Positions 18,625 to 39,184 of a stretch of 64,000 nt of DNA are shown here, one piece after another. The stretch spans positions 2,459,001 through 2,523,000 of the forward strand of contig NZ_OY776414.1 of assembly GCF_963675585.1 (NCBI RefSeq), in the 5' to 3' direction. Source of the stretch: an uncultured Draconibacterium sp. GTDB lineage: Bacteria > Bacteroidota > Bacteroidia > Bacteroidales > Prolixibacteraceae. Within the stretch, counting starts at the first letter, position 1; every line of letters starts with the position of its first letter. The position numbers and the translations under genes are program-made. Under the pieces are notes generated by a model, which saw only the letters and a program-made list of their open reading frames with translations, made no database searches and was not told where the DNA came from.

Positions 18625-19410
18625 ATGATCGACACTGCACTAAATGCCGCCATAGAAGCGGGACACGAAATACTCAAAATTTACAACGATCCAAAAGCCG
18701 ATTTTTCGGTTGAAAAAAAAGCAGATCATTCCCCCTTAACAATTGCAGATAAAGCAAGTCACCTTGTAATCGTAAGCCATTTGGAAAAAACAGGCATCCC
18801 AATTCTAAGTGAAGAGGGAAAAACAACTGACTATTCCGAAAGAAAAAAGTGGGAAACCTTTTGGCTGATTGATCCATTGGATGGCACCAAAGAATTTATC
18901 AAAAAAAACGGGGAATTTACCGTAAACATTGCATTCATCAAAAAAGGTAAGCCAGTAATGGGCGTTATTTATGTTCCTGTAAGCGGCACTCTTTATTTCG
19001 GATCAGCAAAACATGGAGCCTGGAAACTGCAACAAACGCCTAAAACCATAACGCTGGAGCAGGTATTGGCGCAAGGCAAGAAACTACCTGCACCTATGAA
19101 TTCCAATGTGTATAAAGTAGTAGGAAGCCGATCGCACATGAGCGAAGAAACCATAACGTATATAAAGGAATTAAAATCCGTTCATTCCAATTTAGAAATT
19201 GTTTCAAAAGGAAGTTCCTTAAAAATATGTATGGTTGCCGAAGGATCTGCACATCAGTATCCGCGTTTTGGACCAACCATGGAATGGGACACGGCAGCAG
19301 GACACGCCATTGCCAATGCCGCAGGAAAGAAACTCTGGTTAACAGACATGAGCGGAGAATTACAGTACAATAAAGAAAACCTTTTAAACCCTTATTTTAT
19401 CGTAAAGTAA
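18625..19410 (+). CDS. cysQ: 3'(2'),5'-bisphosphate nucleotidase CysQ
   Basis: The protein has 261 residues and is an inositol-monophosphatase-fold enzyme. The metal-site motifs are intact: SEEG (62-65), DPLDGTKE (83-90) and WDTAAGHA (221-228). VEKKADHSPLTIADKAS (29-45) is the usual N-terminal signature. CysQ hydrolyses PAP, the by-product of PAPS-dependent sulfotransferases, to AMP. It lies upstream of cysC and within a locus holding five sulfotransferase-like genes, so a housekeeping role for glycan sulfation is likely (inference). It is a cytoplasmic enzyme. The leader consists of repeats. Confidence 0.93.
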   Translation: MIDTALNAAIEAGHEILKIYNDPKADFSVEKKADHSPLTIADKASHLVIVSHLEKTGIPILSEEGKTTDYSERKKWETFWLIDPLDGTKEFIKKNGEFTVNIAFIKKGKPVMGVIYVPVSGTLYFGSAKHGAWKLQQTPKTITLEQVLAQGKKLPAPMNSNVYKVVGSRSHMSEETITYIKELKSVHSNLEIVSKGSSLKICMVAEGSAHQYPRFGPTMEWDTAAGHAIANAAGKKLWLTDMSGELQYNKENLLNPYFIVK

Positions 19411-19559
19411 GAAGAAGTTGTCAACTCGTTGCACTCGCGGATTCAAAGTTGTCCGGTTGTCAAAGTAGCCATGTCAACCAACACACCACAACCGACAACA
19501 ACCGACACCAACGACAACCAACAACCAACATCCAATAACAACTCAACATCATCATCACC

Positions 19560-20177
19560 ATGAATAATAATAACATTTATACAACATTCGACAAAATAAA
19601 GGACCGCTACGCCAAAGAAATCTACCTGAAACAACAAGGAAAAGTAATCTGGTTTACCGGTTTGTCCGGATCAGGAAAAACCACTTTGGCCAGTCAACTG
19701 GAAAAACGACTTTTTGAACTCAACTACTTTTGCCAGATACTGGATGGCGACAATGTGCGTTCCGGGATCAATAAAAACCTGCGTTTTACCGAAGAGGACC
19801 GCATGGAAAACATTCGCAGGATTGCCGAAGTTTCCAAATTGTTTATGAACTGCGGTATCATTCTCATCTGTTCATTTATCAGTCCAACAAACGAAATGCG
19901 TGACTTGGCCCGAAGCATCATTGGCGATGATGATTTTCTGGAAGTATTTGTAAATACTCCTCTGGAGGTTTGTGAGCAACGTGACCCCAAAGGCTTGTAC
20001 AAAAAGGCCCGTGCCGGCGAAATACCAAACTTTACGGGGATCTCTTCTCCCTTCGAACATCCGGAACATCCGTTTATCGAAGTTGATAACTCCAATAAGG
20101 ATGTGGATGAAAACGTACGGGAAATGTTGCTTAAAATTGTTCCCGAAATCAGATGGGATCCCAGTGGAATTATTTAA
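19560..20177 (+). CDS. cysC: Adenylylsulfate kinase CysC
   Basis: The protein has 205 residues. The Walker A motif GLSGSGKT is at 34-41, followed by DGDNVR, FTEEDRMENIRRIAEV and ISPTNEMRD, then DPKGLYKKARAGEIPNFTG, all characteristic of APS kinase. It makes PAPS from APS and ATP. No ATP sulfurylase gene (cysD/cysN or sat) lies in the window, so APS must come from elsewhere. The ATG at 19560 follows a 150-base leader of CAACC/ACAAC repeats. It follows cysQ in the same orientation and probably supplies the downstream sulfotransferases. Confidence 0.95.
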   Translation: MNNNNIYTTFDKIKDRYAKEIYLKQQGKVIWFTGLSGSGKTTLASQLEKRLFELNYFCQILDGDNVRSGINKNLRFTEEDRMENIRRIAEVSKLFMNCGIILICSFISPTNEMRDLARSIIGDDDFLEVFVNTPLEVCEQRDPKGLYKKARAGEIPNFTGISSPFEHPEHPFIEVDNSNKDVDENVREMLLKIVPEIRWDPSGII

Positions 20178-20344
20178 GCTGAAAGCAACAGAACTCTGAA
20201 CCGGTAGCAAGCTTCAAGCATCGAGTATCAAGCATCAAGCATCATGTATCCAGCATCGAGCAGCAAGTATCAAGGCAAAAGGCAAAAGTTTAGAATATCA
20301 AGATTTACTTAACAATACTTACCACTAATAACTAACAACTAACC

Positions 20345-20644
20345 ATGTCTGTACTACCAAGAAGACACCTGGCAAAAGCCATTACCTGGAGAATTGTTGC
20401 CTCACTCACTACATTTCTGATTGGATGGATTGTTACCGGTGACCTGAATTTTGGGATGGCCATTGGAGCTGCCGATGTACTCATTAAAATAGCGCTTTAC
20501 TATTTTCACGAACGACTGTGGTACCACTCCAATTTTGGTGTGGTGGAAGATGGCAAACACATTTATAAACCCATATTCCGTTTTCGAAAGAAAAAAGTTC
20601 GGGAAGCAGCTGTCCCCGTAAAAAGCAATGAGAATAAAAGCTGA
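20345..20644 (+). CDS. DUF2061 small membrane protein
   Basis: The protein has 99 residues. It starts RRHLAKAITWRIVASLTTFLIGWIVTGD, then AIGAADVLIKIALYYFHERLWYH, the hallmark pattern of DUF2061 with two membrane segments. A basic C-terminal tail follows (residues about 78-99). DUF2061 genes are often found beside sulfate-activation genes, and the biochemical role is unknown. Here it follows cysC, in line with that association. The upstream 165 bases contain heptamers and the GGCAAAAGTTTAGAATATC spacer right before the start. Confidence 0.88.
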   Translation: MSVLPRRHLAKAITWRIVASLTTFLIGWIVTGDLNFGMAIGAADVLIKIALYYFHERLWYHSNFGVVEDGKHIYKPIFRFRKKKVREAAVPVKSNENKS

Positions 20645-22440: not shown

Positions 22441-22733
22441 AATAACTCTGAACTCTAAAAAAGAAGGACATAAAATAAAAAGAGTTTTAAAAATTAATCC
22501 GTCAACAAGTTGTAAAACACCTCAATGCTATTGTTTGAAAACGATTATTGGTGTATATTGAAATCAATCATTTACCCAAATAACAAATTCCAAATTAGTA
22601 ACGATCACCCTCATTAAAGGAAAACATTGAAAAATTACAACAAAAAAACCGGTGAGTTCTGAATCAACCCACCGGCAGTGTTAATAAACGTCCTGAAAAG
22701 GACACATTTAAAACTTTTTAAATTTAATATTTT

Positions 22734-23489
22734 ATGGCGAATAGTGAAGATTATTTAGCAAAACTGGAAACCATTAAGGCCATTCCTGACGAAGAAACTT
22801 TAGTTCCGAATCTTCCCATGGACAACTATTTACAAAGTTGTGAGAATTTATACCATTGGGCTTTGGACGATCTCCCAAAGCTAACGGTAGTGGGATTAAA
22901 AAAGAGTATGATTGATGATCTGCCTGTTAGAACCGGTGCTGCCCGTTATGCACAGAGTGTTTGGAACAAGGACTACAACTCGCAGCAGGAAGCACAAAAA
23001 CGCTGGACAGAAGAAGCACCCGCCGCTTACGAGCTACGCGATATGCTGCTCCGTACCTTTCGGTATGCTTACCGTAAAGACGAAGCCCTTTTAAACCGCG
23101 TAAGGGCCATTGCCGAGGGAGAAGGTAACGATGATCTGGTGCAGGACTTAAGCGATTTAAGTGTATTGGGAAAAGAAAATCCTGATCCACTTACTGCGAT
23201 GGGTTTTGATTTAGCCCTACTCGATACCGCCGAAAGTGAATCGGATGCCAAAGCCACCCTGCTGGCGGAAGCCAATGGCGACAAAGCCATTCAAAATGAA
23301 TCGAAAGTAATACGCGACAAAGCCTATACGCATTTAAAAGAACTGGCCGATGAAATTCGGGAAGCCGGAAAGTATCTTTTTTTTAAAGATAAAACACGCT
23401 ACAAAGGCTACACTTTGTCGTACTGGTCGCACCGAAAACGAAAAAGTAGCCCGGATGAGACTACTGTAACCAACGAAACAGATGAATAA
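22734..23489 (+). CDS. Hypothetical protein
   Basis: The protein has 251 residues and is not recognised. There is no signal peptide or membrane segment. It is acidic and mostly helical in appearance. A conserved-looking segment near the end (VIRDKAYTHLKELADEIREAGKYLFFKDKTRYKGY) resembles the tail of uncharacterised Bacteroidota proteins of similar size, but I cannot name a family. It is preceded by TTTAATATTTT and followed by a strong inverted repeat. It has no evident operon partner and is probably unrelated to polysaccharide synthesis. Confidence 0.6.
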   Translation: MANSEDYLAKLETIKAIPDEETLVPNLPMDNYLQSCENLYHWALDDLPKLTVVGLKKSMIDDLPVRTGAARYAQSVWNKDYNSQQEAQKRWTEEAPAAYELRDMLLRTFRYAYRKDEALLNRVRAIAEGEGNDDLVQDLSDLSVLGKENPDPLTAMGFDLALLDTAESESDAKATLLAEANGDKAIQNESKVIRDKAYTHLKELADEIREAGKYLFFKDKTRYKGYTLSYWSHRKRKSSPDETTVTNETDE

Positions 23490-23495
23490 TAGTTT

Positions 23496-24343: not shown

Positions 24344-24356
24344 GTATTTTTCCCAA

Positions 24357-24763: not shown

Positions 24764-24847
24764 TTAGCCAAAAGACTTAAGAATATTGCAGATTGACACA
24801 CCGATTTCAAATTGGCGCGAGTGGAGTCTCCACACAAAAAAACTGAA

Positions 24848-26170
24848 ATGAGAATAAAAAATACCCTCAATAAATACTTAAACAAACTCGACATTCATAC
24901 ACTGGAGGTGGTGAAAAAGTCTTCAGCCTCTACAGTGGTGAAAGTGGCAGGTATGGCCATTGGCCTGGGGGTAAGTATTTTTTTGGGAAGAACTATTGGC
25001 GCTGATGGCTTGGGAATAATTAATTTAAGCCATAGAATTGTTAATATTCTTATTGTTGTAGGCTTATTAGGCATGCAACAGGTAATTGTAAAAGAAGTGG
25101 CCATAGCTCATGGAAAAAAGGATTACGAACACATTGGCAATGTAATGTATTCTGCTTACTGGTTAAATGTAGGAATTACACTTAGCATATCCATCATTCT
25201 GATTCTGTTTGCTCCCTGGGTGGCTGAAAATGTTTTTCATGAACCACGTCTCACTTATCCACTGATTATCGCAATTATTGTGTTGACTCCACAAGTCTTC
25301 TCCCGAATATTTGCTTCAGGATTGAATGGATACAGAAAAATTTGGCAAAGCAATTTAGTTGATAAAACCTTAAGCATATTTGCAACAGGTATTTTTTTGT
25401 TATTATGCACGTGGTTAAACATTAAGATTGATATAATCAATGTTGCTGTTTGCTATGGTTTAGGAAGATTAGTCGTAACAGTAAGTATTGGTTTATACTG
25501 GCGTTCACTCAATAAGCTAAAATTTAAGAGAAAATATATTGGGAAGCAATTATGGAACACGTCACGGCATCTTTTCATAGCTGCTTTTGCAAATATTTTT
25601 TCGACGAATATTGATGTTTTAATGCTTGGCAATTTAGCCAGTTCAAGTGAGGTTGGCACCTATACAGTTGCATCGAGACTTGCCTTGTTGATAAGCTTTT
25701 TTCTTCAAGTTACCAACTCGTCTATATCGCCCAAAATAGCTGCATTGTATGAAAAAGGCAGCATGAAAGAATTGGAACTCATGATACAAAAGGTAACCCG
25801 TGGATTGGGATTAATTGCTCTTATTCCATTGATAACATTTATCATTGCTGGTAAATTTATTTTAGGAATTTGGGGAAACGAGTTTATAGATGCATATCTT
25901 ATTTTAATCATTCTTGCAGTTGGTCAATTTTTTAATATATCTACAGGTGCGGCAGGGCTTATGCTAACAATGACTGGCCATGAAAAGACAATTAAAAATA
26001 TTTCTCTTGCATTTGTAATTATAAACATTTTCCTTAATTATTTTCTAATAAGATTCTGGGGAGCATTGGGTGCCGCACTTTCTATGGCGATAGTTGTTAG
26101 TTCTCAGAATTTAATCAAGGTTATATATGTAAAAAGATTTACAAAAATCACCACTGTTAGACTAATTTAG
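24848..26170 (+). CDS. wzx: Polysaccharide flippase (Wzx, MOP superfamily)
   Basis: The protein has 440 residues from the ATG at 24848 (MRIKNTLNKYL). An upstream in-frame ATG at 24812 would add a hydrophilic stretch and is less likely. About 12-14 hydrophobic segments are spread over the length, starting VVKVAGMAIGLGVSIFLGRTIGADGLG, the typical start of Wzx. It moves lipid-linked oligosaccharide units across the inner membrane. It is the first gene of the long plus-strand polysaccharide operon, followed after about 20 bases by a sulfotransferase gene. Base composition becomes AT-rich from here on. Confidence 0.9.
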   Translation: MRIKNTLNKYLNKLDIHTLEVVKKSSASTVVKVAGMAIGLGVSIFLGRTIGADGLGIINLSHRIVNILIVVGLLGMQQVIVKEVAIAHGKKDYEHIGNVMYSAYWLNVGITLSISIILILFAPWVAENVFHEPRLTYPLIIAIIVLTPQVFSRIFASGLNGYRKIWQSNLVDKTLSIFATGIFLLLCTWLNIKIDIINVAVCYGLGRLVVTVSIGLYWRSLNKLKFKRKYIGKQLWNTSRHLFIAAFANIFSTNIDVLMLGNLASSSEVGTYTVASRLALLISFFLQVTNSSISPKIAALYEKGSMKELELMIQKVTRGLGLIALIPLITFIIAGKFILGIWGNEFIDAYLILIILAVGQFFNISTGAAGLMLTMTGHEKTIKNISLAFVIINIFLNYFLIRFWGALGAALSMAIVVSSQNLIKVIYVKRFTKITTVRLI

Positions 26171-26191
26171 ATAAAGAAAAAATTGAAAATC

Positions 26192-26833
26192 ATGCATATA
26201 ATAGGAAATGACCATATAACACGTTTAAAAATTTTCCTCAACCCAAAGAAATATTCTCCTGTTAGAAGGATCGGAAATGAAAAAATTATATTTATTCATA
26301 TCAACAAAACCGCAGGAACAAGCATAGCTAAGTCAATTGGGTTACCTTTTAAAATGCACTATACATGCAAAGAAATAATTGATATTGTCAATAAGAAAGA
26401 TTGGGATGAAGCTTATAAATTTACTGTAGTCAGAAATCCATGGGACAGAGTTGTTTCACATTATAAATACAGATTAAAAACAAATCAAACAGGATTGGGT
26501 GCCCAACCAATATCTTTTAAAGATTGGATTAGACATACCTATTCTGAAGAAAAAAATCCAAAATATTATAATAATCCAAAAATGTTTCAGCAACAAATTG
26601 AATGGATAAAAGATTATAATAACAATGTGTGTGTAAATAAAATCATACGATTTGAGAATATTGAGAATGAATATAATTTTTTTGCAGAACAAATTGGAAT
26701 TTCAAATAGATTACCACATTTGAACAAGACAAAACATGAAGATTATAAAAAATATTATGACGACGAGACTATTTCAATAATACAAAACTGGTTTAGAGAC
26801 GATATAGAACTTTGGGGATACACATTTGAGTAA
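26192..26833 (+). CDS. Sulfotransferase-family protein (Sulfotransfer_2 type)
   Basis: The protein has 213 residues from the ATG at 26192. A TTG three codons upstream is also possible. The 5'-phosphosulfate loop is NKTAGTS (38-44, after IFIHI) and the 3'-phosphate motif is RNPWDRVVSHY (81-91). These are the two PAPS-binding signatures. The protein would transfer sulfate to a carbohydrate acceptor in the cytoplasm or at the inner membrane. Acceptor sugar cannot be predicted. It is AT-rich and is flanked by flippase and a second sulfotransferase. Confidence 0.85.
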   Translation: MHIIGNDHITRLKIFLNPKKYSPVRRIGNEKIIFIHINKTAGTSIAKSIGLPFKMHYTCKEIIDIVNKKDWDEAYKFTVVRNPWDRVVSHYKYRLKTNQTGLGAQPISFKDWIRHTYSEEKNPKYYNNPKMFQQQIEWIKDYNNNVCVNKIIRFENIENEYNFFAEQIGISNRLPHLNKTKHEDYKKYYDDETISIIQNWFRDDIELWGYTFE

Positions 26834-26871
26834 TTTCCTTTATTATAAATCATAAAAAATATTACTTGCGA

Positions 26872-27558
26872 ATGAGATTAAAACTTCAATTTGTTAGAAA
26901 AAAACTTGATGTGCCAATATATATATTTAGTTATCACAAATCTGGAACTAAATTCATAAGTAGAATATTTAGAGAAATATGCTCTGAATTCAATTGGAAA
27001 TTCAAAGTAGTAACTGGGAAGCCCACTAAAATCCCAAATGCGGATATTATATTTTTTATCCACGGCTTGGCTGATCCAAAATCAATTAAACACGATTTTA
27101 TTGGTATACATATTATTCGAGATCCCAGAGACATAATTATTTCAGGGTATTTATACCACAAAAGAACATCCGAATTGTGGTGTAACAATAAAAATTTCCA
27201 AATAAACAAAAAGATAAAATTTCCTCAGGTTCCATACTCGCAGGAACATAAATCAGAGGAATGGAAAAAAAGCTATATAGAAAGTCTTCAAAATAGATCA
27301 TATCAGGATATTATGAACACTTTATCTGAAGAGGAGGGTATATTGTTTGAAATGAATCATTATGGACAATGGACAATTTCAGAAATGATTAAATGGAATT
27401 ATAATCATCCGGCATTCCTTGAACTGAAGTTCGAAAATATTATGGATAATTATGAACAAGAATTTTTAAAGATATTTGAACATTGTAAATTCAATGAAAA
27501 GGTAAAAAAATACTCAATGAACATTGCCCAAAAAGAAAATATCCATACCATGTTGTAA
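26872..27558 (+). pseudogene. Sulfotransferase gene, 5' part, interrupted by an IS3 element
   Basis: The frame codes for 228 residues from the ATG at 26872. PAPS-site motifs are present: HKSGTKF (22-28) and RDPRDIIISGY (83-93). The frame ends in IHTML followed by a stop at the IS3 left end. The missing C-terminal part appears downstream of the element at about 28780-29034. The intact gene would have been a sulfotransferase of roughly 300 residues. The insertion probably inactivated it. Confidence 0.82.
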
Positions 27559-27602
27559 GCTTCCCCAAAAACAGGACAGTTTAAAAGTAGACAAATAAAC
27601 GT

Positions 27603-27610
27603 TAATTTTG
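27603..27610 (+). promoter_or_regulatory. Predicted -7 box of the IS3 transposase
   Basis: TAATTTTG matches TANNTTTG, 12 bases before the orfA ATG. A TTTA lies at the -33 distance of 19 bases, one base off TTTG. Confidence 0.45.
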
Positions 27611-27622
27611 AACTGTTAGAAG

Positions 27623-27889
27623 ATGAAGAAGAAAAGATTTACACCACAGCAAATCTCCTCGATTTTGAAGGAGTACGAAAACGGCAAAAGCGTAGAAGAA
27701 ATTGTTCGTGACCATAGCGTTAGCCGAGCTACATTTTACAAATGGCGGCAACGATATGGCGGCATGGAAGCCTCAGAGTTGAAAAGGCTCAAGGAACTCG
27801 AAGAGGAGAATCGCAAGTTAAAAATGATGTATGCCGAACAAGCTCTTGATTTAAAACTTGCCAAAGAGATTATCGAAAAAAAGCTTTAA
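27623..27889 (+). CDS. IS3-family transposase OrfA
   Basis: The protein has 88 residues. A helix-turn-helix ([17 protein letters not shown], then [16 protein letters not shown]) is followed by a leucine-zipper-like coiled coil ([37 protein letters not shown]). The end of the gene holds the slippery heptamer A AAA AAG (27877-27883), where a -1 shift would fuse OrfA to OrfB. Confidence 0.93.
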
Positions 27890-28755: not shown

Positions 28756-28779
28756 ACGACTTCGCTAACTCAGTCGCCC

Positions 28780-29034
28780 TTGACAGAACCCAAAATCACC
28801 TTAATAAAGCTTTCAGAATTTGGTTATGAAAAAGAAAATAATCTATTTTTAAGTAGTCCTAAAAAGGGGAAGCTTAAAATGTCATCTGAATTAATAAATA
28901 AAAATCCACATGTGTCTTCCACAAAGACTTCGAAATGGAAAGATTTTTTTACTCCAAGAATAGATGACGAGTTTAATAAGTTATTTGGATCGACATTAGA
29001 GATATTAGGATATAGTGATAAAAATGGCAAGTAG
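28780..29034 (+). pseudogene. Sulfotransferase gene, 3' part beyond the IS3 element
   Basis: The frame has no proper start of its own. It reads LIKLSEFGYEKEN and ends with NPHVSSTKTSKWKDFF, then ILGY, the C-terminal signature of cytosolic-type sulfotransferases (HVS..KTxxWKxxF). It is in the frame that would continue the 5' part at 26872-27558 if the element were removed at a shared ACC. It overlaps the next gene's start by 11 bases. Confidence 0.75.
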
Positions 29035-29837: not shown

Positions 29838-30848
29838 GTGAAACTCTATATTGGCTACATAATAACTCCAAATACGTTTGTATCGGGTCTTTCAAACGGA
29901 GTTCGATCGCAGGCTTTGCAATATAAAAAAGCACTGGAAAAATTGGGTCATAAAGTTGAACTAATCAATTCATGGGATATTTATGATTTAAATTCATTTG
30001 ATATAGTACACATTTTTGGTTCAGGATCTTTTTTAAGCCAACTCATTCCGGATCTATTTCGGAAAAAAATCAAAATTGTACTTTCACCCATTTTAGATAC
30101 AAACGAATCCAGCATTCTTATTAGGTTAAAATCGTATTTAGGAATAAAAAAAATAAACCTACACAACAACTTCTCCAGTTTAAGAAGTCTGGATTCGTTG
30201 ATTACAGGCTATATGTGCAGGTCTGAATATGAATTTAATATAGTCAAGAAAGGTTTTGCTGTCAAAAAAAATAAAATTGGAATAGTACCTGTAGGACACG
30301 AAAAAACGACAAGTGAAATAGACCTTTCACAAAAAGAACCGTTTTGTTTGCATGTTAGTTCTCTATATCAGGAAAGAAAAAATGTAATCCGTTTGATAAG
30401 AGCAGCCTCTACATCTAAAATTAAACTAAAACTAGTTGGATCAACTGGCAATAAAGCCCAGCAAGCGAAGTTAAAACAAGTAGTTGAGCAAAACCCTAAT
30501 GTTGAACTGATCGGTTTTGTATCAGAAGAAGAACTCATATCTTTATACAAAAGAGCAAAATGCTTTGCTCTCCCAAGCTTAATGGAAGGTGTTGGCATTG
30601 TAGCACTTGACGCTGCTTCATACGGATGTGAAGTAGTTCTAACAAAAAGAGGCGGACCAAAGGAATATTTTCGAGACTTGGCACATTTTGTTGATCCATT
30701 AAGCATTAAAAGCATTAAAAAAGGTCTTGAGGCAGGGATGAAAAGTAACTTTCAACCAGGGTTAAAAGATTATATTTATACACAATACTCTGAAACAATG
30801 GTTGTGGAAAAATTATTATCGTATTATTTCGAAATAATTAACAGATGA
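29838..30848 (+). CDS. Glycosyltransferase family 4 protein
   Basis: The protein has 336 residues and starts with GTG (MKLYIGYIITPN), one base after the previous stop codon. The GT-B fold is suggested by an N-terminal SGLSNGVRSQALQYKKALEKLGHKVELI and a C-terminal CLHVSSLYQERKN, then SLMEGVGIVALDAASYGCEVVLTKRGG with the E-x7-type nucleotide-sugar site. It transfers a sugar to the growing glycan. The sugar is unknown. The stop overlaps the start of the polymerase gene (ATGA). Confidence 0.85.
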   Translation: MKLYIGYIITPNTFVSGLSNGVRSQALQYKKALEKLGHKVELINSWDIYDLNSFDIVHIFGSGSFLSQLIPDLFRKKIKIVLSPILDTNESSILIRLKSYLGIKKINLHNNFSSLRSLDSLITGYMCRSEYEFNIVKKGFAVKKNKIGIVPVGHEKTTSEIDLSQKEPFCLHVSSLYQERKNVIRLIRAASTSKIKLKLVGSTGNKAQQAKLKQVVEQNPNVELIGFVSEEELISLYKRAKCFALPSLMEGVGIVALDAASYGCEVVLTKRGGPKEYFRDLAHFVDPLSIKSIKKGLEAGMKSNFQPGLKDYIYTQYSETMVVEKLLSYYFEIINR

Positions 30849-32077
30849 AAATAAGTATTACCAAATATTTTCAGAAGATTCATCTACCGCTTATTTTAAT
30901 AATTGGATCCTTATACATTTCTTTAATATCAAATTATTTAGGACCTCCAAACATGGTCCTTACTGCTCCTGTTCTTTTTGTAGGATTTGCAATGAGTATT
31001 TATCTTATTCACAAAACAAAATTCTTTTCTCAACATTTTAATTTAACCGAACAAATCTTCTTCCTGTTTACACTTATCTATTTTTCTAATCTTTTTATTG
31101 ATACTATTCTTCTACCGCAAAAGAAGATACTTACAAGTTATGCAACCAGTGGCATGCTTCTCTTATATATAACTTGTTTCGGATTCATAACTAGCCTATC
31201 TGTAAAAAACAAAAACAATTTTGACGAAAAAACTATCCTAAGAATATTCTTTTTTCTTGGAACATTAGGAATGCTGATTGCTCTTCCTGCAATGAAAAAC
31301 GTAGTTCGTGGAGTATCTCAATATGATACTGGAAGAGCCGATGTAGGAGAAGGCCTAAACGCCATTACAATGGGAAGGTTTTCAATTTCGATTTTTATTA
31401 TTGCATTTTATGTATTTCTTAAAGAAAAAAAGGTCTCATATAGAATTCTATCTGTATTTTCGATGCTACTGTGCTTATTGGTTGCAGCATTAACCGGTTC
31501 AAGAGGACCATTCGTAACATTGGCTCTTGTTATTCTATTCTTTTTTTTAGTACAAAAGAACACAAAAAATGTATTGCGTTTTATGGTGGTTTCACTTTTA
31601 TTGTTTGTGTTGCTAAAAGGAACAATTTTGAATTTTCTTGAAAGTAGAGGGGCTTCTATTTTCATTCGTATGGAACAAGCAATTTATGAACAAAATTTTA
31701 GCGGACGAACTCAAAAATACCTGGATGCCCTGCACTCATTTCAGGAAAATCCAATTTTCGGACACTACTTTGTCTTGGATAAAGGAGAGAATGCCGGAGG
31801 TCATCCGCATAACCTTTTGCTTGAAGTACTTATTACAACCGGACTTTTGGGAATAATTCCATTCCTGTATATTCTATTAAGTAACTTAAAAAAGTCAGTT
31901 TGGGTCATAAGTAAAGATGCGCCATGGGCATGGATACATTTGCTTTCAATACAATATATACTTGCAAGTATGTTTTCTTTCTCCTTAACAAAATCACCTG
32001 GAGTTTGGATTCTAATTTATTTTGTTGCGTCTTATAATAAAAATATATTGAAACAAGCTGATTCAAAAAATGAATAA
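30845..32077 (+). CDS. wzy: O-antigen/polysaccharide polymerase (Wzy-like)
   Basis: The protein has 410 residues and about 10-12 hydrophobic segments. A loop with GRTQKYLDALHSFQENPIFGHY, then GGHPHNLLLEVLITTGLLG is the mark of the O-antigen ligase/Wzy_C family (the H in PHN is conserved). It would polymerise repeat units at the outer face of the inner membrane. The ATG overlaps the upstream glycosyltransferase stop (ATGA), and its own end overlaps the next gene by 8 bases. Ligase versus polymerase cannot be told by sequence. With Wzx and Wzz present, polymerase is preferred. Confidence 0.85.
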   Translation: MKISITKYFQKIHLPLILIIGSLYISLISNYLGPPNMVLTAPVLFVGFAMSIYLIHKTKFFSQHFNLTEQIFFLFTLIYFSNLFIDTILLPQKKILTSYATSGMLLLYITCFGFITSLSVKNKNNFDEKTILRIFFFLGTLGMLIALPAMKNVVRGVSQYDTGRADVGEGLNAITMGRFSISIFIIAFYVFLKEKKVSYRILSVFSMLLCLLVAALTGSRGPFVTLALVILFFFLVQKNTKNVLRFMVVSLLLFVLLKGTILNFLESRGASIFIRMEQAIYEQNFSGRTQKYLDALHSFQENPIFGHYFVLDKGENAGGHPHNLLLEVLITTGLLGIIPFLYILLSNLKKSVWVISKDAPWAWIHLLSIQYILASMFSFSLTKSPGVWILIYFVASYNKNILKQADSKNE

Positions 32078-32786
32078 ATATCACCCGAATATGAATGAAT
32101 TATATGTTTTCTATGCCATTCCCAAAACTGGCGGTACTACAATAAATAAAGCATTAATAAATAAGTTGAATTCAGATGAATCCTTTATGCTCGTTAATGA
32201 TAAATATTCTGAATATAAACTATTGTCAAATGAAGATAAGGGCAAAATAAAGTTTATTGCCGGACATCGTTCATCTTACCAGTTAATAAATGACAATCCA
32301 GGTAGAGAAATTAAATTCATAACCTTTTTCAGAGAACCTGCTAAACAAATTATATCACATTATAATTTTCAAATGAATTCAAAATTTGAAAAACCAATTA
32401 GTTTTAAAAGATGGTACTACCTCCATAATCTCAGAAATCCGCAAGCCTCTCACTTAATGCGTAGATTTAGGGGCGATTTTTTAAAGAGCTTTTTGGTCAC
32501 AAAAAAGGATACAGATGCGATTAAAGAACTGCTACAAAGTTTTTATTTTGTGGGCGTTACAGAGCATATCGATATGGATGCGCCGCTGATATTTAAAACA
32601 TTTAATATACAAAAAGCTGATCTAATTAGAAAAAAAGTTGCAGGGCAACATTATACAATCTTTGAAGAGTTAAACAATGATCTGCGAATGAAACTCAATA
32701 AGGAAAACAAATACGACTTTGATTTATATACATTCGCTCAAAAGTTAAGGGAAGACTTTTATAAATCAAATAGCGACATGCCATAG
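32070..32786 (+). CDS. Sulfotransferase-family protein
   Basis: The protein has 238 residues. The 5'-phosphosulfate loop is PKTGGTT (18-24), and the second motif is FFREPAKQIISHY (86-98), with R and S conserved. The downstream GHRSSYQL segment is also seen in family members. It probably sulfates the glycan with PAPS as donor. It overlaps the polymerase gene by 8 bases, indicating co-translation. Confidence 0.8.
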   Translation: MNKYHPNMNELYVFYAIPKTGGTTINKALINKLNSDESFMLVNDKYSEYKLLSNEDKGKIKFIAGHRSSYQLINDNPGREIKFITFFREPAKQIISHYNFQMNSKFEKPISFKRWYYLHNLRNPQASHLMRRFRGDFLKSFLVTKKDTDAIKELLQSFYFVGVTEHIDMDAPLIFKTFNIQKADLIRKKVAGQHYTIFEELNNDLRMKLNKENKYDFDLYTFAQKLREDFYKSNSDMP

Positions 32787-32845: not shown

Positions 32846-33652
32846 ATGACATTTCTATTTCTAAAAAGAAAATTACATACTTATATAAATATCAAAAAAA
32901 TCATTGATTCACATAAATTAGTCAATGAGCATAAACCGTTTAATAGCTACGCCAGGGTTTATCACCATCACTTAATGAAAACGGGAGGAACTTCTCTAAA
33001 CCATATGTTTCTCAATCTTTCTTCAACAAACAATGAAAACCTTTACAATAAATTGATGGCAAGCTCGGATCTTCGGATTATTAATAATCGCTGGGTATTC
33101 TCTGCCTGGAATCAATCAGTAATAAGATCGGGATTGTTCCATTATGCATGGTCTCATAGGCCTTTTGACAAATTACATATGCCAGAAAAAACATTTATTT
33201 TTTCATGTTTTCGAGATCCACAGGAACGCATATTTTCGAGATACAATCATTTAAAAAAGGAATACAACTCTACAAATCCAAGGAAGGATATTAATAAAGA
33301 ATATCAATTATTAGGAAATTGTTTTGAAGATTATTTAAAAAATATTCCAAAGCAAGAAATCTGTCATCAACTATATATGTTTTCAACCAAACTTGACTTA
33401 AACGAAGCTTTAGCAAGACTTTTCATATTAAATTATATTGTCACGTTAAATACTTTTGAATCTGATATTGATAACCTTAACTCCATCTTAAACATTAATT
33501 TGCATCCGATTCATATCCGCCGATCAAATAACAAAGAAAATAACTTATCTCAAACATCTATTAACTGTATAAAGAATCATTTACAATCAGAAAATGATTT
33601 CTTTAAGTATGTTATTGAATTAAAGCAATTAATAAACGATCTCTCTAAATAA
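32846..33652 (+). CDS. Sulfotransferase-family protein
   Basis: The protein has 268 residues. Motifs are MKTGGTS (44-50) and CFRDPQERIFSRY (121-133), matching the two PAPS-binding signatures. The HHHLMKTGG context and following NHMF are family-like. The first 35 residues are basic with no convincing membrane segment. It is the fifth sulfotransferase-type gene in the operon, following the fourth after 59 bases. Confidence 0.8.
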   Translation: MTFLFLKRKLHTYINIKKIIDSHKLVNEHKPFNSYARVYHHHLMKTGGTSLNHMFLNLSSTNNENLYNKLMASSDLRIINNRWVFSAWNQSVIRSGLFHYAWSHRPFDKLHMPEKTFIFSCFRDPQERIFSRYNHLKKEYNSTNPRKDINKEYQLLGNCFEDYLKNIPKQEICHQLYMFSTKLDLNEALARLFILNYIVTLNTFESDIDNLNSILNINLHPIHIRRSNNKENNLSQTSINCIKNHLQSENDFFKYVIELKQLINDLSK

Positions 33653-33677
33653 TAAATCTAGTAAAATCCAATTGCAC

Positions 33678-34394
33678 ATGACTAAATTTTTATCATACTT
33701 GAAACATATTATAAAAGTAATTCTAAGAAAAGATATTCATGTAAAAAAAGAAATCAACCTAAGAACCAATTGGTACGGGCAGAAATACCTAGGCTTTTTT
33801 GTCTATGATAAATATATAAATTCAAGTAGTATTGTATATTCATTCGGAGTCGGTGAAGATATTTCATTTGATATAGCACTTATTAATAAATTTAATTGTA
33901 CGGTTTTTGGTTTTGACCCAACCCCAAAATCAATTGAATTTATAAAAAGAATAAAACCTTCACCCAATTTTGTTTTTTCGCCCATAGGCATTTATAAATT
34001 TGATGGGATTGTAAAGTTCTATTTACCTTCTAATCCTGAACATGTTAGCTGTTCTACGAGTAATGTATGGAATAATAAATCCTCCAAGGCAAATTCTATT
34101 GATGTACCTGTCAAAATGTTTTCCACCATATTAAAAGAACTGCAACACAAAGAAATTGATATTTTAAAACTCGACATAGAAGGTTCTGAATATCAGGCTC
34201 TGAATGATATTCTGAATTCAAAGTGCATTATAAAACAAATTTTAATTGAATTTCATCATAGATTTCCTACCATAGGAATAAAACAAACAAAAAAAGCTAT
34301 TAATAAACTTACCGAAGCTGGATATAAATTAGCTGCTGTCTCCGTGAATTATGAAGAATTCACTTTTGTGAATTCAAAATTAATAAATAGCTAA
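33678..34394 (+). CDS. FkbM-family methyltransferase
   Basis: The protein has 238 residues from the ATG at 33678. A TTG two codons earlier is possible. SAM-binding motifs are FGVGEDISFD (56-65) and GFDPTP (78-83). LKLDIEGSEY (163-172) is the FkbM hallmark. The family adds methyl groups to sugars, often O-methylating a glycan residue. The substrate is presumably a sugar of the repeat unit (inference). Confidence 0.85.
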   Translation: MTKFLSYLKHIIKVILRKDIHVKKEINLRTNWYGQKYLGFFVYDKYINSSSIVYSFGVGEDISFDIALINKFNCTVFGFDPTPKSIEFIKRIKPSPNFVFSPIGIYKFDGIVKFYLPSNPEHVSCSTSNVWNNKSSKANSIDVPVKMFSTILKELQHKEIDILKLDIEGSEYQALNDILNSKCIIKQILIEFHHRFPTIGIKQTKKAINKLTEAGYKLAAVSVNYEEFTFVNSKLINS

Positions 34395-34442
34395 GTTTTA
34401 TCCTCTTCATAGATAAATTAATAACTATTGCTTCATCATAAT

Positions 34443-35333
34443 ATGAAACAAAATGAATTAGCCCCAATTGCTCTATTTGTATACAACCGTTTGGAACAAT
34501 GTATACACACCATCAGGAAATTACAGAACAATTATCTTGCTAATAAAACTGCTTTATACGTTTTTTCCGATGGAGCAAGAACTAAAATAGATGAGAGCAA
34601 AATCAGCCAAATTAGATGTTTTTTAAAAACTATTGAAGGATTCAAAGAAATATCAATAATTGAGTCTCCGGTAAATAAAGGTTTAGCAAATTCGATTATT
34701 TCAGGAGTTTCTGAAATAATGAACAGGTATGGAAAAGTAATCGTTCTTGAAGATGATCTGATCACATCTCCGAATTTCCTAAATTTCATGAATCAGGCCT
34801 TGGACTATTATAAAGATAACGAAAAGATTCATTCAATTTCCGGCTACAGCATGGATCTGTCATCCTTAAAAACAAATCCATTAGATTATTATGTTGGACT
34901 TAGGGCAACTTCATGGGGATGGGCGACATGGGATAAAGTTTGGCAGGAAGTTGATTGGGAAGTTAATACCTACCCGGAATTTAAAGCCAGTATTAAAAGT
35001 CAGTTCAAGTTATTTCAAATTGGAAGTGATATGCCAAGGATGCTAAGACATCAGATGAACGGAAAAATTGATTCATGGGCAATAAGATGGTGTTATCATC
35101 AATTCTTAAATAAGTCCTACACAATATTTCCTACAATATCAAAAGTGCAAAATATTGGATTTGGAGGACAAGCCACTCACACAATTAAAGGATCCCGATT
35201 TAAGACCACTCTTGATAAAGGAGAGCAAACTAACTTCGATTTCAATCAGAATTGTATTCCAGATAGTCAAATAATAAAAGAATTTCGTAGGAAGTATTCA
35301 ATTTCGGCAAGAGCTAAAGAAAGGTTTTTATAG
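34443..35333 (+). CDS. Glycosyltransferase, GT-A fold (GT2/GNT-I-like)
   Basis: The protein has 296 residues from the ATG at 34443. A TTG five codons earlier is less likely. It starts LAPIALFVYNRLEQCIHTIRKL. A metal-binding DxD-like motif appears as VIVLEDDLITSPNFL (about 100-114). A later conserved block is RATSWGWATWDKVW. The pattern resembles the GNT-I-like bacterial group. It would add a sugar to the repeat unit. It ends one base before the next ATG. Confidence 0.8.
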   Translation: MKQNELAPIALFVYNRLEQCIHTIRKLQNNYLANKTALYVFSDGARTKIDESKISQIRCFLKTIEGFKEISIIESPVNKGLANSIISGVSEIMNRYGKVIVLEDDLITSPNFLNFMNQALDYYKDNEKIHSISGYSMDLSSLKTNPLDYYVGLRATSWGWATWDKVWQEVDWEVNTYPEFKASIKSQFKLFQIGSDMPRMLRHQMNGKIDSWAIRWCYHQFLNKSYTIFPTISKVQNIGFGGQATHTIKGSRFKTTLDKGEQTNFDFNQNCIPDSQIIKEFRRKYSISARAKERFL

Positions 35334-35334
35334 A

Positions 35335-36459
35335 ATGCATAGTAGACCCAAAATTCTTTTTGTATTACAAACTCCTCCACCATATCACGGATCATCTATC
35401 ATGGGCCAGATTATTAAAGAAAGCCCAAAAATAAACAATTCTTTTGAATGCAAATTTATTAACTCTCTCACTTCAAGAGAAATTGATCAGGTTGGGAAAG
35501 CACAAATTAGAAAATTTTTTTTGTATCTCAGAATTGCATGGTCCCTGTTAAACCATCTTTTATCTTTTAAACCTCAAATTTGTTATTATTCTATAACAGC
35601 ATCAGGCATTGGATTTTATAAGGATGCCTTTCTTATTACGATCATCAAGCTTTTTCGACTTCCAATTGTTTTCCATTTCCATAATAAAGGCATTCGAAAT
35701 AAACAGGATAATCTTGTTGATAATTTTTTGTACAAGTTTGTTCTCAAAAATTCTCAGGTCATTTTATTGTCCGAGAATTTATACTCAGATATTGAGAAAT
35801 ATGTATCTATAAAATTGGTCCACTTATGTCCGAATGGTATACCGAACAATAATATACCTTTAAAATTAAAAACTGGGAAAACGGAGAAGGTAACTGTTCT
35901 GTTTCTGTCTAACCTCATTAAGTCAAAAGGTGTGTTTATCTTATTGGAAGCATGCAAAATGCTTAAAAATAGGAAAGTAGATTTCAAGTGTAATTTCATC
36001 GGTGGTTTTGGAGATATAACCGAAGAACAGTTTAACAAGAAAATTGATGAACTGGGGATCCTTGATATTGCTACCTATGGTGGCAAAAAATACAATCAAG
36101 AGAAAGAAGAAGCTTACACATCTTCAGATATTTTTGCCTTTCCAACCTATTACCACAATGAGTGCTTTCCTCTTGTTATTTTAGAAGCAATGCAACACAG
36201 TCTTCCTGTAATTTCTACGTTTGAAGGAGGAATACCAAGTATGGTTGATGATGGAGTTACAGGATTTCTAACAATGCAGCAAGATGTTAACGCCTTTGCT
36301 GATAAACTTGAAGTTTTAATTAATAACAAGAAACTTAGAGATGAGATGGGAAAGGCTGCACGTATAAAATTTGAAAAAAATTATACAATTGAGATATTTG
36401 AAAATAATCTTTCTCAAATACTAAGTAAGATCTTAAAAATCACTTCATCTCAGAAATAA
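35335..36459 (+). CDS. Glycosyltransferase family 4 (GT-B) protein
   Basis: The protein has 374 residues. The N-terminal PPPYHGSSIMGQII resembles the acceptor-binding loop of GT4. The C-terminal AYTSSDIFAFPTYYHNECFPLVILEAMQHSLPVISTFEGG has the E-x7-E site for the nucleotide-sugar donor. The sugar is unknown. It starts two bases after the previous stop and is translated together with its neighbours. Confidence 0.9.
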   Translation: MHSRPKILFVLQTPPPYHGSSIMGQIIKESPKINNSFECKFINSLTSREIDQVGKAQIRKFFLYLRIAWSLLNHLLSFKPQICYYSITASGIGFYKDAFLITIIKLFRLPIVFHFHNKGIRNKQDNLVDNFLYKFVLKNSQVILLSENLYSDIEKYVSIKLVHLCPNGIPNNNIPLKLKTGKTEKVTVLFLSNLIKSKGVFILLEACKMLKNRKVDFKCNFIGGFGDITEEQFNKKIDELGILDIATYGGKKYNQEKEEAYTSSDIFAFPTYYHNECFPLVILEAMQHSLPVISTFEGGIPSMVDDGVTGFLTMQQDVNAFADKLEVLINNKKLRDEMGKAARIKFEKNYTIEIFENNLSQILSKILKITSSQK

Positions 36460-36467
36460 TTTCAAAA

Positions 36468-37211
36468 ATGATAAGAATTGTAAATGTTTTGGGATTAAAC
36501 GTATTTTCCGATGATCTTATGTCTATAAGTCTCGATAAAAAAAATCTTCTTCTGAATACAATTAGCCCTAATTCTTATGGTATTTCAACCAAAGATCTGA
36601 AATTCCAAAAATCATTAAAAAACTCAGATTATTTAGTACTTGATGGCACATACTTTGCGTTAGCCTCAATTCTTCTAAACAGAACAAATATTAAAAAGAA
36701 TCAGGGGCCAGATGTTTTCTATCATTTCATGGAGAGGATTAATTCCCAAAATGGTAAAGTATTTTTTCTTGGATCGTCTGAAAAGACTCTTAATAAAATA
36801 AAAGAAAAAGCTGCTATCGATTATCCATTTTTAGAGACAGGCTTCTTCTCACCTCCTTACAAAGCAGAATTTTCTTCAGAAGATACCCAAAGAATGATTA
36901 ATGCAGTTAACGAATTTAAACCTGACGTATTATTCATTGGAATGACCTGTCCAAAACAGGAAAAGTGGGCTTATGAAAACAAAAATGAAATGGAATCAAA
37001 TTTAATTTGCTGTATCGGAGCAGTTTTTGACTGGTACGCAGGAAATGAAAAACGAATTTCTCCTATTTGGTGGAAATTACGGCTAGCCTGGCTTATTAGA
37101 ACGATACATCGTCCAGAAATTTTAAAAAGATATCCAAATATAGGTATCTTTTTCTGGCATTTACTTTTAGCATTACTTGGTTTTAAAAAATATAAAAATG
37201 GAAAAATCTAA
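36468..37211 (+). CDS. WecG/TagA/CpsF-family glycosyltransferase (GT26)
   Basis: The protein has 247 residues. Family hallmarks are the central GPDVFYHFMERI, the GKVFFLGSSEKTL segment, VLFIGMTCPKQEKW and CIGAVFDWYAGNEKRISPIWW near the end. GT26 enzymes add the second sugar to an undecaprenyl-linked primer, so this protein may work with the WecA-like enzyme at 61.5 kb (inference). It overlaps the following oxidoreductase gene by 14 bases. Confidence 0.9.
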   Translation: MIRIVNVLGLNVFSDDLMSISLDKKNLLLNTISPNSYGISTKDLKFQKSLKNSDYLVLDGTYFALASILLNRTNIKKNQGPDVFYHFMERINSQNGKVFFLGSSEKTLNKIKEKAAIDYPFLETGFFSPPYKAEFSSEDTQRMINAVNEFKPDVLFIGMTCPKQEKWAYENKNEMESNLICCIGAVFDWYAGNEKRISPIWWKLRLAWLIRTIHRPEILKRYPNIGIFFWHLLLALLGFKKYKNGKI

Positions 37212-38238
37212 AATAAAACTTGCAATAATAGGTGCAGGCCGAATGGGGATCACACACTATTCCATCATAAACAGTCATCCAAATGCAGAAGTGGTTGCGG
37301 TTGCAGATCCATCTACCATTGTGCTTACCATGATGAAGAAATACCTGACCGTTAAAACCTTTAAAGATTATAATGAACTTTTTGAAACAACGTATTTGGA
37401 TGGAGTATTAGTATGTACCCCACCCAATCTGCATTACCCAATTATTAAGAAAGCGGCTGAGAAAGACGTCCATGTATTTGTGGAAAAACCTTTTACAACA
37501 AAAAGAAATGAAGCTTTAAAACTGGCTGAATTATTCAATAAAAAGAACCTGATTAATCAGGTAGGTTATGTGCTCCGGTTCAACGATTGTTTTGTAAAAA
37601 GCAAACAGTTGATCGATGATGGAGTACTCGGAAAAATAAAACGCTTCAAGATAGAAAAATACAGTGCCACCATTACTTCAGGTGATGATAGTTCAGGATG
37701 GAGGGCTACGCGTGAAAATGGAGGCGGGGCAGTATTTGAAATGGCCTCCCACGCCATTGATCTGGTCAATTATTTAATTGGAACACCGGACAAGGTAATT
37801 GGATCAAGTTTAACAAAAATCTTTTCAAAAAACGTTGAAGATGCCGTTAGTTCAACCTTCTTATACACGAATGGGAAATCGGGATATATTGACATTAACT
37901 GGAGTGATACCAGTTACCGCAAGCCTGCCAGTAAAATTGAAGTTTTTGGAGCAAATGGTAAATTGATTGTGAATGAACATAGTATCAAGGTGTTTTTGAA
38001 CGAGGCAAACGAAGAAGAGAAATTGCAAAAAGGGTGGAATACTTTGTACATAACCGATGTCTTCAGAAATGTTCCATTCTATGTTCGTGGAAATGAGTTT
38101 ACGCGTCAGTTATATGAGTTTGCAAACAGTATTCTAGAAAACAAATTTGATACATTGTGTACCTTCGATGACGGAGTAAAAACACTGGATATTATTGAAA
38201 AAATATTCGTTGATTACGAACAGAATGAAATGCGTTAA
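37198..38238 (+). CDS. Gfo/Idh/MocA-family NAD-dependent oxidoreductase
   Basis: The protein has 346 residues from the ATG at 37198. The upstream in-frame start would lie within the preceding gene. The NAD-binding motif GAGRMG is at 12-17, and the catalytic-site EKP is at 96-98. A later segment GGGAVFEMASHAIDLVNYLIG contains the conserved HxxD-type pair. The family oxidises or reduces sugars, including sugar nucleotides. It probably modifies a precursor of the glycan. Confidence 0.9.
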   Translation: MEKSKIKLAIIGAGRMGITHYSIINSHPNAEVVAVADPSTIVLTMMKKYLTVKTFKDYNELFETTYLDGVLVCTPPNLHYPIIKKAAEKDVHVFVEKPFTTKRNEALKLAELFNKKNLINQVGYVLRFNDCFVKSKQLIDDGVLGKIKRFKIEKYSATITSGDDSSGWRATRENGGGAVFEMASHAIDLVNYLIGTPDKVIGSSLTKIFSKNVEDAVSSTFLYTNGKSGYIDINWSDTSYRKPASKIEVFGANGKLIVNEHSIKVFLNEANEEEKLQKGWNTLYITDVFRNVPFYVRGNEFTRQLYEFANSILENKFDTLCTFDDGVKTLDIIEKIFVDYEQNEMR

Positions 38239-38305
38239 ATACAGCCAATATATTATTAGCTCAGTTGAAATTATTTCAGTATCCTAAAAAATACAAAAAT
38301 TAAAT

Positions 38306-39184
38306 ATGCAACAGATAGATAAGATCATATTCGGAGACAATCAGTTTTTTGGAATTAACCACATGTCGCAGGATAAGGCCCAGCAACTTGCGGAAAAATT
38401 TTATGATATTCAGAATATTTACAGAATCTACGACATGGCAATTGATGCCGGAATAAAAGGCATTATGCTTAACTCAAACGATCGGGCTAAAGATATTTGT
38501 AATCATTTTAGGGAACATAAAGACAAATACGCCGATATCAACTGGTATCCTTCTATTCCTTATCCACATAAATATGCTAATCTGGTAGCCGAAAAAGGAA
38601 TTATGCCGGCTATTAATGAAGTTTTGTTCAAAGATAATTCAGCAGGAGGTGTATTGGGAATGATGGCTCAAGGAGGAATGGCCTTGCTTGGGAAAGATGC
38701 AATTAAAATGATGCAGATGCTCATTGATGTTGAAATGAAAATGTTCAAAGGCCTCAATGTCAAAGTGGTATTTCTACAGAATGTAATCACTGACTTGATA
38801 CTCGGCTATGATATAAAAGAGGTATTTAAAGAATACTGTGACCACATTCATAAAAAGTACAACGCTCTGCCAGGACTAATTACCCAGAATATGCCCTACC
38901 TGAAAAATAAATTAGAACAATGGGGTATTAACGAAGTCGTTATCTGCAGTTCTTTCAATAAAATTGGCTATTTAATGTCTCCTGGTGTTGATGAATACAT
39001 AGAGGTTGCTACAAATAATAATCCTGAAAAATACCAATTGATGGCAATGTCAACGATGGCATCCGGAGCCATACCTGCCAAAGATGCTTATGAGTTTATT
39101 AATCGCCAAAATATTCAATCAGTTGTTTTTGGGGCTTCGTCACAAATTCATATTAATGAAACCTTTAAACTTCTCAATATTTAG
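38306..39184 (+). CDS. TIM-barrel-like protein, possible aldo/keto-reductase relative
   Basis: The protein has 292 residues and is not firmly assigned. It begins IDKIIFGDNQFFGINHMS, has repeated beta-alpha-like segments and ends TMASGAIPAKDAYEFINRQNIQSVVFGASSQIHI, resembling the final strands of aldo/keto reductases (SVVFGAS). The usual AKR Asp-Tyr-Lys-His tetrad is not obvious. It lies after the Gfo/Idh/MocA gene as the last gene of the operon. A role in sugar-precursor synthesis is suggested by context only. Confidence 0.55.
   Translation: MQQIDKIIFGDNQFFGINHMSQDKAQQLAEKFYDIQNIYRIYDMAIDAGIKGIMLNSNDRAKDICNHFREHKDKYADINWYPSIPYPHKYANLVAEKGIMPAINEVLFKDNSAGGVLGMMAQGGMALLGKDAIKMMQMLIDVEMKMFKGLNVKVVFLQNVITDLILGYDIKEVFKEYCDHIHKKYNALPGLITQNMPYLKNKLEQWGINEVVICSSFNKIGYLMSPGVDEYIEVATNNNPEKYQLMAMSTMASGAIPAKDAYEFINRQNIQSVVFGASSQIHINETFKLLNI

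Follow-up and report, generated by a model that had tools for sequence, protein, structure and literature searches.

Members of the Bacteroidota are known above all for degrading sulfated glycans; do some of them also make such glycans? The question is raised by a polysaccharide locus of an uncultured Draconibacterium sp. (genome of 6.03 Mb in four contigs), located in a stretch of 64,000 nucleotides of contig C4, hereafter the window (NZ_OY776414.1, positions 2,459,001 to 2,523,000). The locus extends from the UpxY gene at 9856 to the end of the last operon gene at 39184. Among its genes for glycan assembly and export it encodes CysC, a kinase of adenosine 5'-phosphosulfate (APS) that yields 3'-phosphoadenosine 5'-phosphosulfate (PAPS), CysQ, a phosphatase of 3'-phosphoadenosine 5'-phosphate (PAP), and five sulfotransferases (ST1 to ST5). 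We consider it quite probable that this locus makes a sulfated surface polysaccharide of the Wzx/Wzy type. The reading is carried by the observed family membership and order of the genes, the accessory status of CysC and CysQ, their co-occurrence in the genus, and the contrast between the front and the back half of the locus in relatives.

Gene families were called by Pfam and NCBIfam profile searches, with scores compared to curated cut-offs. The genes run in the order UpxY, SLBB exporter, Wzz, CysQ, CysC, DUF2061 and a 251-residue protein, then Wzx, followed by sulfotransferases, glycosyltransferases, Wzy, FkbM, GT26, a Gfo/Idh oxidoreductase and a protein without known family; these genes all read on the plus strand. 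From Wzx to 39184 they are tightly packed, with intergenic gaps of -35 to +67 bases, one insertion excepted, and GC content is 0.396 in the front half versus 0.326 in the back half (0.28-0.31 in the sulfotransferase genes). The first gene encodes an UpxY-family antiterminator (9856..10383; NF033644 161.6 bits, cut-off 100), as in Bacteroides-type UpxY-regulated capsules. APS kinase, PAP phosphatase and sulfotransferases stand together in the polysaccharide cluster, the gene content of a sulfated-polysaccharide locus, with ATP sulfurylase encoded elsewhere. An initial annotation had drawn the gene set within 18625-39184, which holds for most of the genes, but Wzz and the SLBB exporter lie outside that span and the locus starts at UpxY. 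Its family assignments of cysQ, cysC, DUF2061, Wzx, Wzy, Wzz, SLBB, FkbM and four glycosyltransferases were confirmed, the fourth glycosyltransferase via a homologue.

Sulfate-donor genes in the locus and in the genus

CysQ (18625..19410), a 3'(2'),5'-bisphosphate nucleotidase, scores 268 bits with TIGR01331, over the cut-off, and 313.7 bits with the CysQ of PDB entry 3b8b. CysC (19560..20177) reaches 215 bits with PF01583, passes TIGR00455 and matches APS kinases in the PDB with a best E value of 1.1e-53. Both are accessory copies. The genome encodes three APS kinases, namely the standalone CysC of the locus, a second standalone CysC (C4:4106564) and a CysNC fusion on contig C3, where CysD lies close by, apart from the contig of the locus. 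The same genome has another locus that combines CysC-CysQ with Wzx and a sulfotransferase. The DUF2061 membrane protein behind CysC (20345..20644; PF09834 73.5 bits) is likewise the second copy of its kind in the genome.

The genus was surveyed in 37 genomes, our own included (genomes, contigs and loci are cited by our G, C and L numbers). CysNC occurs in 31 of them, and standalone CysC, counted as an open frame shorter than 300 residues scoring above 170 bits, in 15 (17 copies). Left out of these counts were two weaker matches, G011:C143 (157 bits, a sulfotransferase about 6 kb away) and G014:C6 (154 bits), matches of about 21 bits inside other proteins, and short fragments from G031 and G021. 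Of a set of 80 loci, L037-L050 were compared, and no count given here draws on them. Sulfotransferases were searched genome-wide with PF00685 and PF03567, without PF13469 and PF17784, and their counts are low estimates; PF00685 matches below the cut-off were kept, and three PF03567 matches overlapping PF00685 ones (G003, G013, G034) were counted once. With these definitions, 13 of the 15 genomes that have a standalone CysC also have sulfotransferases, versus 3 of the 22 that lack it. On large contigs, eight of nine standalone CysC genes lie within 25 kb of a sulfotransferase, where random placement gives 0.16 on average and reached eight in none of 20,000 trials; counted among the eight are the locus in the window and the non-glycan locus of G012. 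Only one of 32 CysNC genes is within 20 kb of a sulfotransferase. Of the 15 genomes carrying a standalone CysC, 13 encode a CysQ of at least 57% identity, and none of the other 22 does (Fisher 3e-8); every one of the 14 copies of this accessory CysQ has a standalone CysC no more than 3 kb away. The co-occurrence and placement tests ignore phylogeny and hence shared ancestry. A second full DUF2061 copy was found in six genomes of the genus, always less than 0.4 kb from a standalone CysC. The linkage of CysC and CysQ looks looser outside the genus than within it: among 24 further genomes of the order, CysQ (48-58% identity) occurs in 11, standalone CysC in nine and both in eight. Sulfation, as proposed in the initial annotation, is supported by these data, as the accessory CysC and CysQ co-occur, lie near sulfotransferases beyond chance and are separate from CysD and CysNC.

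Could CysC and CysQ instead serve sulfate assimilation, converting PAPS to sulfite, with the glycan-gene neighbourhood being incidental? Both families are common to that pathway, and five of the 17 standalone CysC genes lie away from glycan genes with no sulfotransferase seen (G010, the second G031 copy and three on contigs of 7-15 kb, in G014, G018 and G021). Nevertheless, CysD, CysNC and a CysH-like gene are located elsewhere in the genome, and the wide distribution of CysNC in the genus is matched by a more distant CysQ-like protein (36-41% identity) in 27 of the 37 genomes, our own among them. Moreover, the CysH-like protein of this genome (C4:805375) carries the motifs KECC and GCQPC, which are typical of APS reductases, enzymes that do not require PAPS. 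A role confined to assimilation thus appears very unlikely.

The surroundings of the 17 standalone CysC genes were judged from lists of open reading frames (ORFs), partly checked by Pfam. Seven belong to capsule loci and three to a second type of locus, in which CysC-CysQ adjoins Gfo/Idh-like and sugar-nucleotide-dehydrogenase-like ORFs (by eye), with sulfotransferases in G000, G034 and G013. Besides the five copies named above, one (G026) is near a sulfotransferase without glycan genes, and one (G012) lies in a peptide-like cluster with several sulfotransferases. With these seven exceptions among 17, accessory CysC cannot be taken as an invariable sign of a glycan locus. The G012 cluster (G012:C1:1366000-1405999; L121, L122) combines the standalone APS kinase and several PF00685 sulfotransferases with PqqD-like, asparagine-synthase-like, HprK-like and ABC-transporter ORFs (by eye), and possibly makes a sulfated lasso-type peptide. 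L182, L183 and L185 (G010, G031, G014) each hold a CysQ-CysC pair with no glycan or sulfotransferase gene seen; 651-residue GNAT-like and 484-486-residue oxidoreductase-like ORFs (by eye) recur as its neighbours.

Sulfotransferases and glycan assembly

Three of the five sulfotransferases pass the curated Sulfotransfer cut-off of 22 bits: ST1 (26183..26833; Sulfotransfer_2, 44 bits; motifs KTAGTS and RNPWDRVVSHY), ST3 (29015..29836; Sulfotransfer_1, 40.2 bits) and ST4 (32070..32786; Sulfotransfer_2, 23 bits; motifs KTGGTT and REPAKQIISHY). ST2 is split by an insertion on the plus strand, judged by eye to be of IS3 type (estimated ends 27553..28879), with transposase ORFs at 27623-27889 and 27964-28755 and an imperfect 14-nucleotide inverted repeat at its ends (27553-27566 / 28866-28879). 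The N-terminal piece of ST2 (26866..27558; motifs KSGTK and RDPRDIIISGY) stops at the estimated left end of the insertion, and the ORF of the C-terminal piece (28780..29034) starts inside it. Searched apart, both pieces miss the cut-off, with 20.3 bits for the former and 15.2 bits, over positions 199-252 of Sulfotransfer_1, for the latter.

ST5 (32846..33652) is divergent and matched no sulfotransferase model itself in the profile search. It has relatives at E <= 0.001 in six of 395 genomes of the phylum, its own included, of which two are clear. The more distant one, L139 (31% identity, in another Bacteroidota genome), scores 27.9 bits with Sulfotransfer_2 (cut-off 22), while the first piece of the closer one, L138 (48%), matched no sulfotransferase model. 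In the alignment of the three proteins KTGG and RDPxxRxxSxY are invariant, and all five sulfotransferase genes of the locus contain such a pair of motifs, 5'-PSB-like and 3'-PB-like. The initial annotation had counted five sulfotransferase-like genes, one of them broken, and had offered a profile search as one means to refute its reading. This search did not refute it: three genes are over the cut-off, ST5 (32846) is supported via its homologue, and the broken gene (26866), just under the cut-off in its larger piece, is indeed the one split by the IS3-type transposase insertion.

Other approaches added less. A PDB sequence search with ST1, ST3 and ST5 returned no significant match; the best for ST5 was a heparan sulfate 2-O-sulfotransferase at a non-significant E of 0.085. 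AlphaFold models from single sequences reached a mean predicted local distance difference test (pLDDT) of 39.6 for ST5 and 33.2 for ST4. A regular-expression screen for the motifs, which found none in 368 ORFs and nine in 422 with a looser pattern, was clearly incomplete and was abandoned for Pfam.

In both clear relatives, the ST5 homologue adjoins a homologue of GTx, a GT-A glycosyltransferase of the locus (34428..35333), hinting that ST5 may act on the sugar handled by GTx. The matches of GTx itself are all under cut-off, and its assignment comes from the 57% identical homologue in L138 (G342; PF00535, Glycos_transf_2, 28.3 bits, cut-off 23.3). GTx homologues are present in 81 of the 395 phylum genomes, its own included. 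We rejected a general association of GTx with sulfotransferases: when the opening 50 residues of the ORFs flanking GTx were inspected at 29 loci (L144-L172), a sulfotransferase was recognised only at L144, the ST5-bearing locus of G342.

An alternative to a polysaccharide as substrate of the sulfotransferases would be a lipid or a small molecule. BT_0416 of Bacteroides, a member of the same phylum, is reported to sulfate cholesterol beside a putative PAPS cluster (PMC9417993), and the G026 gene pair mentioned above has no glycan genes in sight. In the locus studied here, however, the sulfotransferase genes are interleaved with glycosyltransferase, Wzy and FkbM genes, overlapping them or separated by fewer than 70 bases, they are absent from the loci of relatives together with those genes, and ST5 keeps its GTx neighbour in L138 and L139. 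We regard a lipid or small-molecule substrate as a poor prospect for these enzymes, and a polysaccharide as the favoured one.

The remaining back-half genes are those of glycan assembly. Wzx (24812..26170; PF01943, Polysacc_synt, 93.7 bits; GC 0.35) opens the low-GC variable half. It is followed by two GT4 glycosyltransferases (29838..30848, PF00534 86 bits; 35335..36459, PF00534 115 bits), Wzy (30845..32077; PF04932, Wzy_C, 64.5 bits), the FkbM methyltransferase (33672..34394; PF05050 62 bits), a GT26 glycosyltransferase of the WecG/TagA/CpsF family (36468..37211; PF03808 140 bits, TIGR00696 over cut-off), a Gfo/Idh/MocA oxidoreductase (37177..38238; PF01408 88 bits), which likely serves a sugar-nucleotide step, and a last gene with no family over cut-off (38306..39184). 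With Wzz (15853..16971; PF02706 53.2 bits) and the SLBB/Poly_export outer-membrane exporter (12189..14519; PF10531 138 bits, PF02563 52 bits) of the front half, the flippase, polymerase, chain-length protein and exporter of a Wzx/Wzy-dependent system are all present, the polymerase being assigned by Wzy_C, which alone cannot separate it from a ligase.

No initiating enzyme of the PF02397 family is encoded in the window, the two such genes of the genome lying outside it. A WecA/TagO-type transferase (61529..62626, plus strand; PF00953 126.6 bits) is located 22 kb downstream of the operon and is not part of it. We take the only other PF00953 protein of the genome as MraY, since its gene adjoins a murD-like ORF (by eye), and infer that the WecA at 61529 serves the locus. 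By eye, the 20 kb that follow the G003 and G029 loci showed no WecA-like gene. WecA and a WecG/TagA enzyme form, by established enzymology, a coherent start of a repeat unit. The locus had been called complete-looking, which stands for its export and polymerisation set, but the initiating enzyme had been overlooked and APS has to come from CysD and CysNC encoded elsewhere.

From this gene content, a pathway can be proposed in which the sulfation of the Wzx/Wzy glycan, the order of the enzymatic and sulfation steps, and the sugars and positions concerned are all predictions. WecA would load N-acetylhexosamine phosphate onto undecaprenyl phosphate, and WecG, the two GT4 enzymes and GTx would complete the repeat unit, which FkbM would methylate. 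CysD and CysNC on the other contig would supply APS, the local CysC would convert it to PAPS, and ST1, ST3, ST4 and ST5 would transfer sulfate from PAPS in the cytoplasm, with CysQ clearing the PAP that would otherwise inhibit them. Wzx would then flip the unit, Wzy polymerise it, Wzz set the chain length and the SLBB protein export the product.

A conserved front and a replaced back

Seven capsule-type loci carry this CysC, those of the window, G003, G029, G007, G036, G031 and G020. The full UpxY-SLBB-Wzz-CysQ-CysC front is present in the first four. The G036 contig ends beyond CysQ, and G031 and G020 are variants in which only CysC, the protein encoded at 11554..12078 and, for G031, DUF2061 were matched; the G031 locus also includes a CysD and a CysNC of its own. 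The UpxY, SLBB, Wzz, CysQ, CysC and DUF2061 proteins found in these loci are 58-90% identical to those of the window (CysC 81-90%, SLBB 58-75%; UpxY 64-67% in G003, G029 and G007). The 11554..12078 protein, with no Pfam match, is 58-68% identical in five related loci.

The back half is different. ST1-ST5, Wzy and FkbM have no relative in the other six capsule loci (tblastn, E 1e-5), a Wzx relative (47-48%) occurs in two of them, and the Gfo/Idh and last genes recur only in G007 (41% and 45%), there too with the latter behind the former. Sulfotransferases of other kinds were found in four of these back halves, in proteins chosen for the scan by eye: one in G003, two in G029, one over and one under the cut-off in G036, and two in G031. 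In this genus, PAPS and export genes form a conserved front, and glycan and sulfotransferase genes a replaceable back. Strains may thus differ in how their coat is sulfated.

The insertion in ST2 and the repeat arrays in the gaps around Wzz, CysQ and DUF2061 could indicate a decaying locus that now makes little or no sulfated glycan. The remaining ORFs of the locus are uninterrupted, though, and its front-half proteins are conserved in the relatives (Wzz being in two pieces in G029), and we judge such decay to be unlikely.

Besides the seven CysC copies outside glycan loci, several observations weigh against the production of a sulfated glycan. One of the five sulfotransferases, ST2, is broken. 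No sulfotransferase was found in G007 (six back-half proteins scanned) or G020 (five), nor near their CysC, and a capsule front can thus exist without a recognised sulfotransferase. Outside the genus, G047, G050 and G053 have the CysQ type (49-58%) without a standalone CysC. Finally, CysNC could provide PAPS, so the local CysC need not be essential.

Several further features accompany the locus. The 251-residue protein at the front/back junction (22734..23489), 84% identical in G003 and G036, matched nothing in Pfam, NCBIfam or PADLOC; its relatives (39-84% identity) are found in the capsule loci of G003, G036, G029, G007 and G020. At the same boundary, a pair of small genes (24098-24617), one of them coding for a YoeB-like toxin (PF06769, 118 bits), is probably a toxin-antitoxin module. 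A 31-bp core, always on the plus strand, occurs in 13 copies, of which 12 are exact and one has a single mismatch. They lie in 15008-15748 between SLBB and Wzz, 17112-18452 between Wzz and CysQ, and 20811-22149 between DUF2061 and the 22734 gene, and in the latter two gaps they are part of tandem repeats whose units measure about 255 and 325 bp. None of 187 other loci, including the front halves of the relatives, contained an exact copy of a 28-bp segment of the core.

The 3' border is convergent, formed by a BACON-repeat protein that carries a type IX secretion tail (39293..42970, minus strand; PF13004 224 bits; PF18962 35.7, cut-off 27). It is the first of four large minus-strand proteins of 1225, 3075, 1686 and 713 residues (39293-61251; BACON, leucine-rich-repeat/BspA and PKD types) that separate the polysaccharide operon from the WecA gene. 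Three carry the tail over the cut-off, and the 1686-residue protein gives 26.2 bits against 27. In Porphyromonas, an anionic lipopolysaccharide anchors type IX cargo. The sulfated glycan might conceivably play a similar part here, as the tailed proteins lie between the operon and WecA and a BACON-related protein also borders the G003 and G036 loci, although we hold this to be rather improbable. If it were true, a swap of the back half would alter both the sulfation pattern and the matrix holding surface proteins.

Known systems and significance

Loci for sulfated polysaccharides that include PAPS genes have been described from other phyla, and the present locus is a Bacteroidota variant of them; the comparisons below rest on the accessible portions of the cited reports. 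Among the closest is the xss cluster for synechan of Synechocystis PCC 6803, a Wzx/Wzy-dependent sulfated extracellular polysaccharide; product and mutants were studied, and the single cluster encodes eight glycosyltransferases together with two sulfotransferases that belong to distinct subfamilies (PMC8205485). It is, however, cyanobacterial, plasmid-borne and regulated by XssS/R/Q, and those portions make no mention of PAPS (PMC8205485), in contrast to the UpxY, CysQ-CysC and five sulfotransferases here. The capsule cluster of Vibrio sp. KMM 8419, whose sulfated structure was solved by nuclear magnetic resonance, holds a second cysC copy with sulfotransferase and glycosyltransferase genes, and its authors regard PAPS and sulfotransferase genes in a polysaccharide cluster as a hallmark of sulfated polysaccharides; unlike our locus, it uses ATP-binding-cassette (ABC; Kps) export and has its own cysN and cysD (PMC11641403). 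In Cobetia marina KMM 1449, cysQ and an APS kinase adjoin capsule genes and CysQ was assigned to PAP removal, but the cluster has a cysN/cysC fusion, cysD, a permease and ABC export (PMC11766843). Campylobacter jejuni HS:19 carries a cysD-cysN-permease-cysC-sulfotransferase cluster close to its capsule locus, with a single putative sulfotransferase, kps capsule genes and a product that is only proposed (PMC8743553).

Within Bacteroidota, the BT_0411-BT_0416 region of Bacteroides also places putative PAPS genes beside a sulfotransferase, but the demonstrated substrate is cholesterol and not a polysaccharide (PMC9417993). For Lacinutrix strains from sediment (Flavobacteriaceae), an APS kinase, a putative sulfotransferase and a PAP phosphatase were inferred to yield cellular sulfated materials, with neither a polysaccharide locus nor a substrate named in the accessible text (PMC4755562). 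Elsewhere, sulfated glycosaminoglycan-like exopolymers and a putative sulfotransferase-bearing cluster are reported for Pontiella (Kiritimatiellae), and a Shark Bay study reports Bacteroidetes metagenome-assembled genomes without a sulfotransferase gene. No sulfated polysaccharide locus from Bacteroidota appeared among the open-licence papers returned by literature searches, as judged by titles and the beginnings of abstracts, which agrees with the earlier remark that such polymers are little described in this phylum, Lacinutrix being a partial forerunner.

The locus and its relatives provide genomic evidence that one genus of Bacteroidota also makes sulfated glycans. Donor supply is built into the conserved capsule front, and the sulfating enzymes are exchanged along with the glycan genes. 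The replaced back halves offer a candidate set of new carbohydrate sulfotransferases, the divergent ST5 among them, and an accessory CysQ-CysC pair behind an UpxY/SLBB/Wzz front is a genomic marker for further loci of this kind.

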